Assembly: GCF_900182905.1 (NCBI RefSeq)
Contig: NZ_FXUF01000007.1
Coordinates: forward strand, 62,001-126,000
From: Anoxynatronum buryatiense
Lineage (GTDB): Bacteria > Bacillota > Clostridia > Peptostreptococcales > Tindalliaceae
Reading direction: 5' to 3'
Length of the DNA: 64,000 nucleotides
Shown here: positions 50,494-57,764 of the stretch, one piece after another
How the letters are laid out: each line of letters opens with the position of its first letter
Numbering within the stretch: the first letter of the stretch is position 1
The notes under the pieces: model-generated
What the model was told of the DNA's origin: nothing
Database searches by the model: none
Seen by the model: only the letters and a program-made list of their open reading frames with translations
Translations under genes and position numbers: made by a program

Positions 50494-51423
50494 CTATGAT
50501 TGATCAGAAGTGCTGAAAAGCAGGCTGAAGAGCTCTGCCGGCAATGTGAAGCTGTTGCCGGAGAGCGGCGTATTTGATGCTGTGCTCGCCGGTGTCACAG
50601 TAAGACCCTTGGCATCGGTGCTGATTCTGCCAGCGTCTTCCTTTTCCGAACACGTTTTCCCGGCACATGCCTTTTCATCACCGGCTTCTCCGGTATTCAT
50701 TTCTCCGGTACGGCGATCCTCCGACTTTCCCACCAAATCAGAAGAAGGTTCCTGCTGAAGCAGCATCTCGTCATCAGAAGCCTTCAGCCGAAGCATTTCC
50801 TGATGAATCTGCTCCATTTTCCTGTCCAGCTGGGCCACTGTATCAGCAGCTTCCTTTAAGTCATCCTTCAGCTGCTGGGGCACTTCCCGTTCATATTTAT
50901 AATAGATTTTGTGTTCCAGACTGGCCCAAAAATCCATGGCAATGGTTCGAATTTGAACTTCCACAAAAACTTTCTCCATGCGGTCTGACATAAAGACCGG
51001 GACCTGAAGAATCATATGTAAACTTTGATATCCGTTGGGTTTGGGTTCTTCAATATAGTCTTTGTAATCCAGCACCGTGATATCCTGCTGCTGCATCAGC
51101 ATGCCGGCCACCCGGTAGATGTCTGGAACAAAGGAGCAGGTGATGCGAATACCGGCAATGTCACGAATGTTCTCACGAATGGATTCCACCGACCAGGGGT
51201 AATTCTTGCGCTGCAGCTTGTTGATGATGCTTTCGGGGGTTTTCAGCCGGGACTTGACATGTTCAATGGGGTTATAGTCATGCACATATTCAAATTCCTG
51301 TTTCAGAATATTAATTTTGGTGTTCACTTCTTCCAGCCCGAAACGGTAGTACATCATAAACCGGGTAAGGGATTTTTGAAAGGTTCTCATTTGCTCAGCA
51401 TTCACCTGTTCTATGTTAATCAA
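50494..51423 (-). CDS. RelA/SpoT-domain GTP pyrophosphokinase (small alarmone synthetase-like)
   Basis: 309 residues from TTG at 51423, nine bases after AAAAGGAG; an in-frame ATG at 51516 lies upstream of that site. Synthetase motifs are present: SIRENIRDIAGIRITCSFV, YIEEPKPNGYQSLHMI, then VEVQIRTIAMDFWASLEHKIYYK. No HD hydrolase, TGS or ACT domain, so it makes (p)ppGpp-type alarmones without degrading them. A helical segment follows, then a ~90-residue polar low-complexity tail. It points left, divergent from the signalling operon at 52 kb. Start codon is the main doubt. Confidence 0.88.
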   Translation of the reverse strand: MINIEQVNAEQMRTFQKSLTRFMMYYRFGLEEVNTKINILKQEFEYVHDYNPIEHVKSRLKTPESIINKLQRKNYPWSVESIRENIRDIAGIRITCSFVPDIYRVAGMLMQQQDITVLDYKDYIEEPKPNGYQSLHMILQVPVFMSDRMEKVFVEVQIRTIAMDFWASLEHKIYYKYEREVPQQLKDDLKEAADTVAQLDRKMEQIHQEMLRLKASDDEMLLQQEPSSDLVGKSEDRRTGEMNTGEAGDEKACAGKTCSEKEDAGRISTDAKGLTVTPASTASNTPLSGNSFTLPAELFSLLFSTSDQS

Positions 51424-52079
51424 TAAAGTCAACTCCTTTTGTGGGCATCGAAGCGCTGCGCACAGTATCAGACTGTTATTTCCAGGAAAATCATATCTCC
51501 AACAGAAATAATGCACATCATCCCAAATGGAAATGACGAGCAGACATCACCAGTAGACATTACAAACAAAATCTCGAACGGGTGCCACAGCCAGAAAAAA
51601 AGCCAGGGGCATGTAAAAAGTGTTAGAAAACTGGAAAAAAGGGGCATTCAATCAACATGACGAGAAAGAGACAAAAACGTTTCATCAATGGTGATGGATC
51701 AAAAGATGCCATTTCGAGATCATCACCAGAATAGCAGATGCGTATGAACCATGAATGAACGAATCCCTGTTTTGCATAGACATCGATGGGAAAGCGCACC
51801 GAAAAGCAAACCAATGAAGCAACGATATGGAAAATATGGGAAAAACATCCAGCAGAAAATAAAACAGATGGAAAGGGATCTGAAGACAAGGCAGATCCAC
51901 TGAAAAAAGGTAAAAGACGCTAGCGACACCAAAAAAGCAAAAGACGCAGAAACTGTAAAAACAGGTCGGCTGAAGGTGACGATGAACAGCAACTGAAATG
52001 AAAACTTGAAATGAGAACCTTGAAAAGAGGTCCATGAAAAGAACCCTTGAAAAGACAACCAGTGAGAGGAGTGATGGGC
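51424..52079. other. Divergent spacer between the alarmone synthetase and kinase genes
   Basis: 656 bases, purine-rich on the plus strand. Short open frames are present but have no ribosome binding sites or recognisable products. Degenerate repeats of CCTTGAAAAGA occur near 52017-52055. Promoters for both flanking units must lie here; none is clear. Confidence 0.4.
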
Positions 52080-53390
52080 ATGAGAATACTGGTGGTGGAT
52101 GATGCGCCTTTAAATCTTCATTTTGTCACAAGCATCCTGCATCAAACCTATCCCCAATATGAAATTTACCAGTGCCAGCGACCGAGGCAGGTGGAGAAGC
52201 TAGTCAATGAGAAAGAAATTGACGTGCTGCTTCTTGATATCACCATGCCGGAGATCAGCGGCCTGGATCTGTTGAAAAGCCTCCGGGAGAAACTCAGCAG
52301 CGATGACCTGCAGATTATTATGCTCACGGCACTGGATGACGACGATATTTTTCAGACCTGTTACGCATTGGGAGCCAATGACTACGTGAAGAAACCTTTC
52401 AACAAGGTGGAACTGACTTCCCGTCTCAATCACGCCATTAAGAGCATTCAAGATCAACAGCAAAGAAAGCAGCTGATCCATGGAATTAAAGAACATAACA
52501 ATGAGCTTCGACGGGTCAACATGGAACTTCAAATGGCACAGGCTGCCCTGGTTCACTCAGAAAAAATGGCAGCCATTGGCCAGCTGGCGGCAGGCGTGGC
52601 CCACGAAATCAACAATCCCATCGGTTATGTGAGCAGTAACCTGGAGACACTGAACAGTTATCTTCAAAAGATGACACACTACATCCACCAGTGCCGTGAA
52701 GTGCAGGAAGCACTTGAGAAAAGTGAACACATCCCATCGGAAGCCCTGGCCGTTCAACTGGCCGACAGCTATGAAACACAGAAGCTGGGCATCATCATGG
52801 AAGACCTTGAAGGTCTCATGGCAGACACCCAGGAGGGTGTGCAGCGAGTGGCGACCATTGTTAAAACCATGCGTAATTTTGCCCGCAGCGGTGACCACGA
52901 CGAAAAGGGATGGGTTATCCTGAACGACTTAATACACCAAAGCATGATGATGCTTCAAAATGAATCCAAATACGTGGCCGATGTGATCTTCCGGGAGCAG
53001 GATGAAATCGAGGTGTTTTGCAATCAGGGACAAATCGGGCAGGTACTGGTGAATATCCTGAACAATGCCATACAAGCCATCCGAAACCAGGAAAAGCCGG
53101 AGCGGGGACGGATTACCATCGGGCTGGGGCGCACGGAAGATAAAGCCAATATCATCATCAGCGACAATGGGCCGGGGATTCCAAGAGAGTACCTGAGCCG
53201 AATTTTCGACCCCTTCTTCACCAGCAAAAAAGTGGGCGATGGCACCGGGCTGGGACTCAGCATTTCTTACGATATCATTGTCAATAAGCACGGGGGCATG
53301 TTAGCAGCCCACAGCGAAACGGGAAGGGGTGCCATCTTCGATATCCTGCTGCCCATTCATGATTATCAGGAAAGTGAGGAAAAGGAATGA
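52080..53390 (+). CDS. Soluble histidine kinase with N-terminal receiver domain
   Basis: 436 residues from the ATG at 52080, eight bases after GAGGAG. A receiver domain (1-120) has acidic D7-D8, phospho-acceptor D53 (LLLDITMPE) and K105 (KKPF). A coiled-coil linker and the HisKA domain with H175 (GVAHEINNP) follow, then HATPase_c with NAIQAI, DNGPGIP and GTGLGLSIS. No membrane segment. Its receiver is N-terminal, the reverse of usual hybrid kinases. It heads a four-gene unit and overlaps the next start by four bases (ATGA). The signal it senses is unknown. Confidence 0.92.
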   Translation: MRILVVDDAPLNLHFVTSILHQTYPQYEIYQCQRPRQVEKLVNEKEIDVLLLDITMPEISGLDLLKSLREKLSSDDLQIIMLTALDDDDIFQTCYALGANDYVKKPFNKVELTSRLNHAIKSIQDQQQRKQLIHGIKEHNNELRRVNMELQMAQAALVHSEKMAAIGQLAAGVAHEINNPIGYVSSNLETLNSYLQKMTHYIHQCREVQEALEKSEHIPSEALAVQLADSYETQKLGIIMEDLEGLMADTQEGVQRVATIVKTMRNFARSGDHDEKGWVILNDLIHQSMMMLQNESKYVADVIFREQDEIEVFCNQGQIGQVLVNILNNAIQAIRNQEKPERGRITIGLGRTEDKANIIISDNGPGIPREYLSRIFDPFFTSKKVGDGTGLGLSISYDIIVNKHGGMLAAHSETGRGAIFDILLPIHDYQESEEKE

Positions 53391-54571
53391 AAAGAACCCT
53401 TCTGCTGGTAGATGATGAAAGGCAAGTGATTCGTTCCCTGGAACGACTGCTAATGGACACTGACTATCGGGTTTTGTCTGCCCTCAGTGCACAGCAGGGG
53501 CTGGAAATACTGGAGAAAGAAACCATCAATCTGGTAATGAGTGATATGCGCATGCCTGAAATGGACGGGTATGAGTTCCTCAACATTGTCAAAGAGCGGT
53601 ATCCCCACGTGATTCGAATAATGCTCACCGGGTATTCAGAGGAGAACGTGGTGTTGAAGGCACTGGAAGATAATACGGTAAAAGTGTATCTTTTCAAACC
53701 CTGGAAAAATGAAGAACTGATGGAAACCCTTCGCCAGATTTTTGAAACCTATGACCTTCTCAACAGTTCCCAGTTGCTGGAGATAATCAACAATGCCTCT
53801 TTTCTGCCAACCATCGAAGATGCCTACTGGGAAATCATACGGGCCATGGATCATGAGAGCGACCTTTCCAAGATTGCCTCCTATATTGAAAAAGACTCTG
53901 CCATTGCCAGCAAAGTACTTCGACTGGCCAATTCTGCCTATTACGGAGCGCGAACAGGCTCCCTGCATAAGGCGGTGACTTACATCGGGCTGAAACACAC
54001 CCGCCATCTGGTGAGGTCCACCGCCATTATCGGATTCTTCCAGGGAAGTCATCATGCACGTTCGCTCATGCAGCGTCTTTGGAAACAGGCAGCCCTTTCC
54101 CATCGGCTCTATCATCATCTCTACCAACATCATCTAAACCACAAGATGCCTGAAAACAACATACCGGCAGCCCTCCTTCACAACATCGGCGTCATGTTTT
54201 TACTGGGACATTTTGGAGAAGGTTACGCAACCCTGTTGTTGCAAGCCGATGAAAAGAAACTGGCCCTGGAGGAATGTGAACGGCAGGCCTATGGCAACAC
54301 ACACATGGAAGCAGGCGGGTATCTCCTCAGTTGGTGGAACTTCCCCTTCCCGGTGGTGGAGGCCGCCCTGTATCACCATGCGCCTTTTGATCACCGGGTG
54401 ATCAACACTGAAGTGACAGCAGCCGTTCATCTGGTTAACCGATATTCCCATCAGCTGCTGGGGTTTCCCCAATACGACGGGTATGACGATCGGGTTTTTG
54501 ATTACCTGGGCGTGAATCAACAGCACTTTGAAAAAAGCCTGGAGAGTATATCCCTTGAAGAGGAGGCTTAA
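53387..54571 (+). CDS. Response regulator with HDOD output domain
   Basis: 394 residues. The receiver domain (1-120) has D9-D10, phospho-acceptor D53 (MSDMRMPEMDG) and K in FKPW. An HDOD domain follows (~130-330): SFLPTIEDAYWEIIRAM, DSAIASKVLRLANSAYYG, and LLHNIG. HDOD is an HD-like fold that usually lacks hydrolase activity and acts in signalling. It is translationally coupled to the kinase gene and three bases before the next receiver gene. Output partner is unknown. Confidence 0.9.
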   Translation: MKRTLLLVDDERQVIRSLERLLMDTDYRVLSALSAQQGLEILEKETINLVMSDMRMPEMDGYEFLNIVKERYPHVIRIMLTGYSEENVVLKALEDNTVKVYLFKPWKNEELMETLRQIFETYDLLNSSQLLEIINNASFLPTIEDAYWEIIRAMDHESDLSKIASYIEKDSAIASKVLRLANSAYYGARTGSLHKAVTYIGLKHTRHLVRSTAIIGFFQGSHHARSLMQRLWKQAALSHRLYHHLYQHHLNHKMPENNIPAALLHNIGVMFLLGHFGEGYATLLLQADEKKLALEECERQAYGNTHMEAGGYLLSWWNFPFPVVEAALYHHAPFDHRVINTEVTAAVHLVNRYSHQLLGFPQYDGYDDRVFDYLGVNQQHFEKSLESISLEEEA

Positions 54572-54574
54572 CCC

Positions 54575-55642
54575 ATGGATCAACGAGATGCCGTTCTTTT
54601 TGTAGACGATGAAATCAATGTGCTCAGTTCCCTTAAGCGGGGAATGATGGACGAACCTTATACCTGCTACTTTGCCTCCAGCGGGAAAGAAGCGCTGGTC
54701 ATTCTGGAGGAAAAAACCATCAGCGTCATTGTCACTGATATGCGCATGCCTGAAATGACAGGGTTGAAACTGCTGCAGGAGGTGACCAAAGTATCGCCTG
54801 ATACCGTTAAGATTGTACTTTCAGGATACACCCAGATTCAGCAGATTCTGGCCACCATTAATACGGTGGACATCTTTAAATTCATCACGAAACCATGGAA
54901 AATGGAAGAAGAGTTTAAAGTCATTATTCAACAGGCAGTGGCCTATTACCGCATGAAAAAAGAGCACGAGCAACTGAAACATGACCTGGAAAACCGGAAC
55001 AAAGTATACCGCAACATGCTGGCCACCATGACAGGACGGGTGGCAACGGCCCAAAAACAAGTACAACTGGTGGGCGCTTTGGCAGAAAAGATGCTTGAAT
55101 ATGCACACCGTCATCAACACACCGAAAGCGCCGGAATCAGGGCCATGCTGGAGCAACAGCCCGTGTTTTTCCAGACTTTAGAAAAAATCATTTTGATGCA
55201 GGCAGATCAACAAACAGCTGACGAACTGGAAGCGTGGTTAAGAACTGAGCTGAGCCGGTCATTTTCCCTGGAAAAGGTGACAACCGGCAGGTTGCCGGCA
55301 GAAAAGAAAACCGGGGAAGTGGAAAAAAGACCAGTACCGGGCAGTACCGACGGCAGGCTGATGGCCGGTGGGATGAAGATGATCCTGGACATGCTGCCGC
55401 CAACCCTCCGGGATCAGCCAATTCTTCTGGAGACCACTCAACCCAGCCATCATATTTTTCATTGCCTGTTGCGAATCCCCCTGGGAGAAGGAGAGGCCGC
55501 CCAGATAGACCCCGACTGCATCCAGTACCTGAACATGGTTCTTGGAAAAGCGCTGGAAACTGTTGAGATTCATTTTTCAGCAGTTAATGAAGCGCATCAT
55601 CTGGTGATGAAAATGACAACACCCCTGAAAGAACCTTCTTAA
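54575..55642 (+). CDS. Response regulator with unrecognised C-terminal domain
   Basis: 355 residues. The receiver (1-120) has D11-D12, D55 (VTDMRMPEMTG) and K in ITKPW, close in style to the HDOD-linked receiver before it. A helical region (about 125-215) with MKKEHEQLKHDLENRNK follows, then a linker. A C-terminal part (about 255-355) with MKMILDMLPPTLRDQPILL and TVEIHFSAVNEAHHLVMKM matches no family I recognise. No DNA-binding motif seen. ATG after GAAGAGGAGG, three bases from the previous stop. Confidence 0.85.
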   Translation: MDQRDAVLFVDDEINVLSSLKRGMMDEPYTCYFASSGKEALVILEEKTISVIVTDMRMPEMTGLKLLQEVTKVSPDTVKIVLSGYTQIQQILATINTVDIFKFITKPWKMEEEFKVIIQQAVAYYRMKKEHEQLKHDLENRNKVYRNMLATMTGRVATAQKQVQLVGALAEKMLEYAHRHQHTESAGIRAMLEQQPVFFQTLEKIILMQADQQTADELEAWLRTELSRSFSLEKVTTGRLPAEKKTGEVEKRPVPGSTDGRLMAGGMKMILDMLPPTLRDQPILLETTQPSHHIFHCLLRIPLGEGEAAQIDPDCIQYLNMVLGKALETVEIHFSAVNEAHHLVMKMTTPLKEPS

Positions 55643-55761
55643 ATGACGATTTTCAAAATCGCAGTTCCAAAATGCCGGTTCCAAAATGGAAGTTCCAATC
55701 ACAATCGAACAGCGGCAAAGATACACGGGAGCTGATTCAACGATGAAAAGAGGCGGTACAG

Positions 55762-56895
55762 ATGAAAATAATGTTTGACAGGGAGGGTTCCGTTGAGGGC
55801 CTGAACGCCCTGTTAACGACATTGTGTCAGGAAGAAAATGTCACAGGGGTTATGATTTTTGCTTGTGAATCCAACGAGTTCACCCCTGAAAAAGTAGACT
55901 CCTTGCTGTTAAACTGCATCAAACCTCTGTGGGGAGGCGTTTTCCCTGAAATTATTTATGAAGCTGAAAAGATATCAAAGGGAACCCTTGCCGCCGGCTT
56001 TACCTGCCCGCTGAAAACCGTCGCCATTGATGATCTTAAAAACGATTCCGCCGCCATCAGGCAAGTCATAGAAAACGCTTACGAAAAAGAAGATTTGCGG
56101 GAGCAGACCATGTTCATCTTCGCCGACGGGCTCAGTGGGTGCATCGAAACACTGCGGGACAGTCTGTTTCAGTCTCTGGGTGCCATGCCCAACTACATCG
56201 GGGGTGGTGCAGGATCCCTCCAGTTCATTCAAAGGCCCTGCATCTTTACATCGGAAGGATTGAAAGAAAATGCCGCTGTGCTGGCCCTTGTTCGTCAAAA
56301 AAGCGGTGTGGGTGTCGCCCATGGGTGGGAGCCCATATCGGAACCCCATAAAATAACGGCCGCTGAGGGTAACCGAATCATTTCAATTGACTGGCAGCCG
56401 GCGTTTGAAGTCTATCAGGAGATGGTGGAGAGCCTTTCGGGTAACAGTTTTCAGGAGTATGATTTTTTTCACCTGGCCAAAAACTACCCGCTGGGAATCA
56501 TGAACATGAATCTGGAAATGATCGTGCGTGACCCCATCGCAACCAACTCAGAGAAAGACCTGATCTGTGTGGGAGACGTGCCGGTGAATGCCATTATCCA
56601 CGTACTCAGAGGCGACCGGGAGTCATTGCTGCAGGGAGCGGCGGCAGCCAGAAAAAACGCTGAGATCAATTTCGAAACTGTCACCGGCCAACAGGCTGAA
56701 ACAGCTGTAGCCATGCTTGTTATCGACTGTATTTCCAGGGTGCTGTACTTAAACCATGACTTTGAGGAAGAACTGAAAATTGTCAAAACAGAAGCGACAG
56801 TGATGGGAGCCCTGACACTGGGAGAATTTGCCAATCTGCGCAGCGACAATCTGGCCTTTCACAACAAAACCATCATCACAGCCCTTCTTCAGTAA
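55762..56895 (+). CDS. FIST-domain sensory protein
   Basis: 377 residues with a FIST-N domain (about 25-200; GTLAAGFTCPLKTVAID, YIGGGAGS) and a FIST-C domain (about 210-355; IMNMNLEMIVRDPIATNSEKDLICVGDVPVNAIIHVL). FIST is a predicted small-ligand-binding sensor, often for amino acids, linked to two-component systems. No signal peptide or membrane segment. It lies 119 bases after the last receiver gene, on the same strand, so it is probably the input module for the kinase. Confidence 0.9.
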   Translation: MKIMFDREGSVEGLNALLTTLCQEENVTGVMIFACESNEFTPEKVDSLLLNCIKPLWGGVFPEIIYEAEKISKGTLAAGFTCPLKTVAIDDLKNDSAAIRQVIENAYEKEDLREQTMFIFADGLSGCIETLRDSLFQSLGAMPNYIGGGAGSLQFIQRPCIFTSEGLKENAAVLALVRQKSGVGVAHGWEPISEPHKITAAEGNRIISIDWQPAFEVYQEMVESLSGNSFQEYDFFHLAKNYPLGIMNMNLEMIVRDPIATNSEKDLICVGDVPVNAIIHVLRGDRESLLQGAAAARKNAEINFETVTGQQAETAVAMLVIDCISRVLYLNHDFEEELKIVKTEATVMGALTLGEFANLRSDNLAFHNKTIITALLQ

Positions 56896-57247
56896 AAGAA
56901 AAAAAGCAAAGAAAACAAGTAAAGAAAACAAGTAAAGAAAAACAAAGTGAAAACTGATCAGAAGCGGTTCAGATAAGTATTTGTAAGCCCGTCCACACCA
57001 GCAATCAGTCAGCGGACCACTTTTAAAAAAAACAGAAACATTTTGATGGTTTTTTCGTTAAGATATACGTTAAGACATGCAGTAAGATATAGGCCGTACA
57101 GAGGGCAGCATCAAAGGCAACATTAAGAGCATTAGGAAACAGCTGCACATAAAAACCGATGCCCCGCTGCAGGCAAGCGCGCGTCATAAAGGCATTAAAC
57201 GCAATGTGCAGGTAAAGGAACACCGTGAAAAGAGGTGGTGAGGGTTG
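56896..57247. repeat. Spacer after the FIST gene with a 13-bp tandem repeat
   Basis: aaagaaaacaagt is repeated twice and a bit (56908-56947). The rest has no supportable gene, promoter or terminator. Confidence 0.6.
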
Positions 57248-57472
57248 ATGAAATATCTGATACCGTTGTTGATCATTGGTGTTATTCTCATCTGGCTGGG
57301 GTTTTATGGATTTGGCATCCTCATGATTCCCCAGGGCGCTTTCCCCGTCACTGTTTTCAAAGTGGTGGGGCTGCTGTTCATTCTGCTTTTCATGGGAATG
57401 GCCCTGCGGGTTTTGGTGGAACGGCTGAAAGAACTGAAAGAGGAGGAAGATGATGATTATCGTCAATACTGA
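57248..57472 (+). CDS. Small two-helix membrane protein, unknown function
   Basis: 74 residues from the ATG at 57248; TTG one codon upstream is possible. Two hydrophobic segments (about 4-24 and 33-55) are followed by an acidic tail (ERLKELKEEEDDD). I do not recognise the family. The last 20 bases overlap the next gene, a YbjQ-like protein, with its AGGAGG inside this frame. Tight coupling suggests they act together. Confidence 0.7.
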   Translation: MKYLIPLLIIGVILIWLGFYGFGILMIPQGAFPVTVFKVVGLLFILLFMGMALRVLVERLKELKEEEDDDYRQY

Positions 57473-57764
57473 TTTTATCACTGGAAAAGAACTGGAAACC
57501 CTGGGAATGGTGAAGGGCTCTGTGATTCAGGCCAAACATGTGGGCAAAGACATCATGAGCGGCCTGAAAGGGCTGGTGGGCGGAGAGCTGACGGCCTATT
57601 CAGAAATGATGAACGAAGCACGGGCGAAAGCCACCAAAAGAATGGTTGAAGAAGCCCAGACCATGGGAGCCGATGGCGTCATCAACGTACGGTACACCTC
57701 TGCGGCTGTGATGCAGGGAGCAGCAGAGATCCTGGTGTATGGAACCGCCGTCCGGTTTCGGTAG
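57453..57764 (+). CDS. YbjQ/UPF0145 family protein
   Basis: 103 residues from the ATG at 57453, six bases after AGGAGG; the ATG at 57450 is too close. It shows the YbjQ pattern VKGSVIQAKHVGKDIMSGLKGLVGGEL, then RMVEEAQTMGADGVINVRY. It is a small soluble pentamer-forming family of unknown role, sometimes called heavy-metal binding. Coupled to the membrane protein before it. Confidence 0.88.
   Translation: MIIVNTDFITGKELETLGMVKGSVIQAKHVGKDIMSGLKGLVGGELTAYSEMMNEARAKATKRMVEEAQTMGADGVINVRYTSAAVMQGAAEILVYGTAVRFR

Follow-up and report, generated by a model that had tools for sequence, protein, structure and literature searches.

Stand-alone FIST proteins acting as auxiliary sensors of histidine kinases are an already known kind. 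The available text of PMC12570481 describes the NosP proteins as FIST hemoproteins that modulate autophosphorylation of a kinase in which no sensor domain is recognised and, together with that of PMC8846402, presents systems of a stand-alone FIST protein, a kinase and a response regulator (NosP-NahK/NosK-NosR), in which NosR carries a degenerate HD-GYP output (PMC12570481); further NosP-kinase pairs appear in the accessible parts of PMC11237717 and PMC11784011. Besides, the consulted portion of PMC4114195 reports an HDOD response regulator that keeps its HD pair and whose activity was only weak towards an artificial substrate and absent towards cyclic di-GMP (c-di-GMP). Here, we analysed a locus of Anoxynatronum buryatiense (GCF_900182905.1; 4.16 Mb in 47 contigs) in which a FIST gene follows three signalling genes on the same strand: a receiver (REC)-HisKA-HATPase kinase (gene 1), a REC-HDOD response regulator (gene 2), a protein with an N-terminal receiver (gene 3, REC-X) and the FIST protein (gene 4). 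The window, i.e. the whole stretch of DNA analysed, comprises 64,000 nucleotides (contig NZ_FXUF01000007.1, 62,001-126,000, forward strand). We conclude that the conserved unit is the cassette of kinase, REC-HDOD and REC-X and that FIST joined it within the window's family, and we lean towards a soluble two-component relay composed of this cassette and a recruited FIST sensor.

A preliminary description of the locus had proposed searching related genomes for the four-gene order. This order does recur in G003, a member of another genus of the same family and the only further genome in which we found it, with 65, 54, 56 and 58% identity for genes 1 to 4 and a 67-base gap at the junction of X and FIST. 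Yet genes 1-3 also occur without an adjacent FIST gene. In G358 and G645, retrieved with the X C-terminus from 398 genomes of the phylum, and in G506, retrieved with a REC-HDOD profile from as many, kinase, REC-HDOD and REC-X follow one another in the order and on the strand seen in the window; in G002, which belongs to the window's own genus, their relatives stand in the order HDOD-kinase-X, followed by a PAS-PAS kinase. These five genomes supplied the relatives of gene 1 (that of G003 being the one with 65% identity), and four of the six genomes that hold genes 1-3 together have no FIST beside them. A search with the FIST protein gave matches in 6 of 60 genomes, its own included. No FIST gene was found in G002 (97% complete), G358, G645, G361 or G320, while G506 and G660 carry FIST genes elsewhere in the genome; G004 has FIST between PAS hybrid kinases and gave no X match. 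Since four genomes (G358, G645, G506 and, with the order changed, G002) hold genes 1-3 with no FIST gene next to them, we regard the three genes as the core and conclude that the cassette does not need FIST; G004, conversely, has FIST without an X match. A view of the four genes as one indivisible pathway is ruled out by the cassettes that lack an adjacent FIST gene. The gene order, in turn, is more than chance, given that G003 repeats it for all four genes and G358, G645 and G506 repeat it for the first three. Thus, the four genes are real, conserved and operon-like, and they form a modular assembly rather than a fixed four-gene pathway.

The three phylum searches drew 398 genomes each, apparently the same set, and scored at most four (REC-HDOD profile) or five (full-length X profile) candidates per genome; genes in relatives were called with a simple open reading frame (ORF) caller, which discards the shorter of overlapping frames. 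A full-length X turned up in 7 of the 398 genomes, adjoining a histidine kinase in six of the seven and REC-HDOD in five, where the profile contained those seven sequences, so that the count shows that there is no further clear X rather than that seven is surprising. The X C-terminus by itself was detected in at least 3 of 297 genomes of the order, and searches of this type are insensitive: the one of the phylum gave G358 and G645 and missed G506, G361, G660 and G320. Several variants surround the core arrangement. Kinase and X stand without HDOD beside them in G660 and G320 (regions fetched for receiver matches); in G449 and G610, a REC-HD_5 protein comes after kinase and HDOD; and G557, G508 and G483 have a short regulator ahead of kinase and HDOD. 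These regulators of 243-244 residues were considered as X and rejected, the one scanned, that of G557, being REC-LytTR; those of G557 and G508 were part of alignment A7 and were left out of A8 and A9. The G557 arrangement (L148, 4860-8368, +), with its DNA-binding REC-LytTR regulator before kinase and REC-HDOD, indicates that some HDOD clusters have a transcriptional output. In G361 (L153, 1974-7773, +), HDOD and X are directly preceded, in the kinase's place, by a cyclase-TPR protein of 1171 amino acids that matches zinc-ribbon, adenylate/guanylate cyclase, AAA and TPR domains. For other REC-HDOD genes, e.g. those of G613 and G656, BLAST with gene 1 recognised no kinase in the directly adjacent positions.

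The individual proteins are consistent with a soluble, phosphorylatable unit. Gene 1 matched the Pfam families Response_reg (5.8e-26), HATPase_c (7.3e-24) and HisKA (2.7e-05; 24.6 bits, slightly below the cut-off of 26.9), with no recognised sensor domain. It contains HEINNP, NNAIQA, DNGPGI and GTGLGLS, which we take to be the phospho-acceptor His and ATP-binding motifs, and H175, D53 and the receiver Lys are invariant in three aligned sequences (H175 bears the number H178 there; queries used the start at 52071). The receiver Asp residues of the three proteins (D53, D53 and D55) and the Lys are likewise invariant in alignments of three (gene 1), four (gene 2), and three and nine (gene 3) sequences. 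Genes 1 and 2 overlap by 4 bases, genes 2 and 3 are separated by 3 bases, and 119 bases precede gene 4; GGAG at 52068-52071 lies upstream of the gene 1 start at 52080, although TTG 52047, GTG 52071 and ATG 52074 are possible alternative starts. In a simple hydropathy scan, no membrane-spanning stretch was seen in the four proteins, whose highest 19-residue mean was 1.50; two membrane kinases from G003, taken as controls, reached 2.5 and 3.2. Coordinates, Pfam, hydropathy and alignments hence bear out what had been described for the four same-strand genes, i.e. their domain make-up and spacings, the retained phospho-acceptor Asp and Lys residues and the operon-like, soluble character of the unit. 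The accompanying claim that DNA-binding outputs and membrane sensors are absent stands for the four proteins, in which no membrane stretch was seen, but not for all relatives, as two Cache/HAMP-type kinases lie one gene away on either side of the G003 cluster.

In gene 2, HDOD (PF08668) is a strong match (3.3e-41; 141.4 bits against a gathering cut-off of 22.9), next to Response_reg (1.1e-23). Judged from its sequence, this protein is unlikely to be a metal-dependent phosphohydrolase because its HD pair has Asn in place of Asp. In the alignment, the pair reads HN in four of five cassette REC-HDOD proteins and HG in the fifth, while the HDOD protein of a Dethiobacter metagenome-assembled genome (L056) keeps HD. 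With this metal ligand lost, the HDOD output can be argued to be binding rather than hydrolytic, and it probably works through protein contact.

The C-terminus of gene 3 had been left as unknown; we now predict that it is a degenerate histidine-kinase core of DHp-CA fold, making gene 3 a receiver fused to a pseudo-kinase, which would be the most unusual part of the system. Pfam recognised the receiver (Response_reg, 2.4e-18) and nothing beyond it. A model of residues 112-355, built with nine relatives, reached a mean predicted local distance difference test score (pLDDT) of 79.5 and a predicted template-modelling score (pTM) of 0.68, and shows a long helical hairpin followed by helix, strand, helix, two strands, helix and two strands. 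All 50 Foldseek matches listed for this part were histidine-kinase-type chains (best E 5.4e-07), among them phytochromes, the atypical kinase RetS, CusS, CpxA, DivL, DesK and ChpT, and VIA-align superposed it on CA domains with Z 9-10 and a root-mean-square deviation (rmsd) mostly of 3.2-4.0 over about 112-132 residues. Several points count against this assignment. It depends on a model of the above pLDDT from nine sequences; Foldseek TM-scores to whole kinase cores were only about 0.3-0.4 with rmsd 9-21, which probably reflects a different angle between the two halves; and by the VIA-align guidance, best Z values of 7-8 are usual where nothing clearly matches and a threshold near 13 is advised for helix-rich models, which makes a Z near 10 support but not proof. 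Besides, hhalign found no profile similarity between the gene 3 C-terminus and the gene 1 kinase (probability 1%), and no kinase motif, N/G box or His is conserved across nine aligned sequences, whose sole invariant residue in this part is a Tyr; the pseudo-kinase assignment is hence a structural one. A sequence search of solved structures with the C-terminus gave one match (E 0.77), and a second examination of the full-length model covered almost only the receiver. LvrB was the top-ranked Foldseek match of full-length gene 3, at a TM-score of only 0.3. More tentatively still, gene 3 might stand for a class of response regulators with a dead histidine kinase as output, in which receiver phosphorylation would drive docking or pairing with the neighbouring live kinase, the cassette being a self-tuning switch that takes different sensors (FIST, PAS, Cache).

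As to gene 4, Pfam recognised FIST_C (5e-22) and FIST (5.3e-22), and the protein is the only PF08495 match in the whole genome; a search of solved structures with its sequence gave nothing at E 0.1. We surveyed 71 FIST loci, the window excluded, of which 68 had a FIST frame (the ORF caller returned none for L039, L040 and L043) and 55 a same-strand gene of at least 90 amino acids within 300 bases downstream; 53 of these 55 FIST frames were of stand-alone length. The gene directly downstream encoded HATPase_c in 35 of the 55 cases, and GGDEF (8), HD_5 (5) and EAL (3) were also found there, some of these domains perhaps sharing a protein, while a hydropathy scan showed no strongly hydrophobic stretch in 50 of the 55 products. 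The window's stand-alone FIST gene also clusters with a soluble histidine kinase gene, which belongs to the same cluster without being the immediate neighbour. A second combination of FIST with HDOD, with a different kinase, was found in the Dethiobacter locus (L056, 1692-7613, +), in the order FIST, PAS kinase, REC-HDOD and REC-HD_5. FIST is thus a likely sensor of the gene 1 kinase, itself without a recognised sensor domain, and by analogy it is plausible that gene 4 works like NosP. Separately, two longer proteins of about 590 amino acids in G003 (L022, 6431-8215, -, and L023, 5856-7610, -) have FIST and GGDEF matches in one open frame, a direct link from FIST to c-di-GMP.

In the relay that we favour, the FIST protein would bind a ligand, which the preliminary description supposed to be an internal metabolite, and contact the gene 1 kinase directly, altering its balance of autophosphorylation and phosphatase activity as NosP does with NosK/NahK. 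Phosphate from H175 would then pass to the receivers of REC-HDOD and of the REC-pseudo-kinase, perhaps also to the kinase's own N-terminal receiver; the HDOD domain, devoid of the HD metal ligand, would act on a partner by protein contact, and the pseudo-kinase would probably dock on the gene 1 kinase or form mixed dimers in a phosphorylation-dependent manner, serving as feedback or scaffold. We infer this contact, this phosphate flow and an output through protein partners, perhaps in a c-di-GMP network. What weighs against such a relay is, first, the position of FIST: it is the last gene of the window's operon, after 119 bases, although elsewhere a FIST gene commonly lies ahead of that for the kinase; in G003 it is followed by a chemoreceptor-type protein; and the cassettes of G002, G358, G645 and G506 have no FIST gene next to them. 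Second, a different kinase could feed into the gene 1 kinase through its N-terminal receiver. The main alternative, which we consider possible if doubtful, builds on this point and holds that the cassette receives its input through that receiver, e.g. from Cache/HAMP (G003) or PAS-PAS (G002) kinases, with FIST as a passenger or adjusting that other kinase. The retained Asp and Lys of the gene 1 receiver and the FIST-free majority of cassettes speak for it, as do the further kinase genes close by in G002 and in G003, where a kinase of Cache/HAMP layout (Cache and HAMP matches below their cut-offs) and a REC-DUF3369-HD_5 protein stand upstream of the four genes and the chemoreceptor-type protein and a dCache-HAMP kinase downstream. 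However, the scanned neighbours in the window (DnaB, RelA_SpoT and YbjQ types) are not histidine kinases, and a kinase gene beside FIST is common (the 35 of 55 cases above).

It is unlikely that the locus is a NosP system proper, in which FIST binds heme and senses nitric oxide (NO) and the pathway controls c-di-GMP behaviour. NosP (NF041558) is indeed the only NCBIfam match of gene 4 (1.6e-08), NosR is the best one of both REC-HDOD and REC-X (159.6 and 158.1 bits, over the receiver), published NosR carries a degenerate HD-GYP output, and the genome has 36 GGDEF matches. But the 34 bits of gene 4 compare with a NosP cut-off of 450, a strict one that none of 143 genomes of the class of G299 passes (best 413), and the NosR matches fall under their cut-off of 400. 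A His invariant in six of six NosP-like sequences corresponds to F366 in gene 4 and is His in none of 67 window-type sequences (FIST frames of 300-460 amino acids were kept, five being dropped by length), yet H367 adjoins this column and the G003 protein also has His one residue on. Conversely, 66 of the 67 window-type sequences retain H187, part of an HGW motif, and the six NosP-like ones lack His in that column, four of them having it in the next. Pfam found no c-di-GMP output domain (GGDEF, EAL or HD-GYP) in the cluster's response regulators, whose outputs are HDOD and a domain without a Pfam match, the predicted pseudo-kinase.

Separate transcription of the FIST gene, serving an unrelated partner, appears rather improbable. 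The 119-base gap and the different kinases beside FIST in related genomes would fit it, but no terminator-like site was found on the + strand of the gap, the promoter-like site at 55743-55772 is of the kind expected by chance (7 such sites in 51400-57500 against 7.3 expected from shuffling), and G003 has the same junction of X and FIST with its shorter gap. Finally, a Spo0B/ChpT-like phosphotransferase role of gene 3, passing phosphate onward through a His of the DHp helix, was rejected as very improbable, since the nine sequences share no His and only a Tyr is invariant in the C-terminal part, even if ChpT (ranks 29 and 42) and bacterial phosphotransferase/phosphotransferase chains (ranks 28, 32, 40 and 41) are among the fold matches.

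Table 1. Features of the four-gene locus, in window coordinates.
Feature	Position	Strand	Basis
Gene 1: REC-DHp-CA histidine kinase, no predicted membrane segment, D53 and H175	52080..53390	+	Pfam, relatives, alignment, hydropathy
Gene 2: REC-HDOD response regulator, H265-N266 in place of the HD pair	53387..54571	+	Pfam, alignments
Gene 3 (REC-X): receiver (54575-about 54907) and predicted degenerate DHp-CA core (54908-55639)	54575..55642	+	Pfam (REC), structure model, fold matches, alignment
Gap of 119 bases before the FIST gene	55643..55761	+	Scan for terminator- and promoter-like sites
Gene 4: stand-alone FIST-FIST_C protein, predicted auxiliary sensor	55762..56895	+	Pfam, NCBIfam

Directly upstream of these genes (Table 1), a RelA_SpoT-domain protein of the alarmone synthetase type (50494-51516, -) is transcribed away from the operon, and a YbjQ-family protein (57450-57764, +) follows downstream of the FIST gene. 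By eye, short repeated motifs (TTGAAAAG-like, GTTCCAAAATG-like and AAAGAAAACAAGT-like) were seen in the non-coding stretches 52000-52060, 55643-55700 and 56895-56940.

Taken together, the locus separates a reusable signalling core from an exchangeable sensor, and the same core with and without FIST offers a natural comparison. This makes three matters testable, namely the control of kinases by stand-alone FIST proteins outside the NosP clade, the role of HDOD regulators and the use of a pseudo-kinase as response-regulator output. The preliminary description knew of no pathway of this exact make-up, which may hold for the composition, whereas stand-alone FIST with kinase and response regulator is described, at least in the available text of PMC12570481 and PMC8846402. 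We found no publication joining FIST with HDOD, which is weak evidence of novelty, as most subscription journals lie outside the literature covered.

Among known systems, the NosP-NosK(NahK)-NosR(NarR) nitric-oxide systems likewise encode together a stand-alone FIST protein, a kinase in which no sensor domain is recognised and a response regulator, NosR also having a degenerate HD-type output (PMC12570481, accessible portion). Here, in contrast, FIST scores far below the NosP cut-off and is the last gene, the kinase has an N-terminal receiver, and there are two regulators, with HDOD and predicted pseudo-kinase outputs. LvrB-type hybrid response regulators with a kinase output share the layout of REC followed by DHp-CA, which is also the domain order of gene 1, but the kinase core predicted for gene 3 has neither conserved kinase motifs nor a phospho-acceptor His. 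DivL, a pseudo-histidine kinase in the terms of the available text of PMC9430884, likewise uses a degenerate kinase core as a regulator; as distinct from DivL and RetS, the putative pseudo-kinase of gene 3 forms the output part of a response regulator and could therefore be switched when the receiver in the same protein is phosphorylated. DVU0330 (Desulfovibrio) and GsmR (Xanthomonas), too, are HDOD response regulators; in the tests reported in the consulted portion of PMC4114195, DVU0330 did not act as a phosphodiesterase on c-di-GMP, and GsmR showed no phosphodiesterase activity at all. DVU0330 keeps the HD Asp that gene 2 has lost, and compared with both, the HDOD regulator described here belongs to a recurring cassette together with a REC-kinase and a predicted REC-pseudo-kinase.

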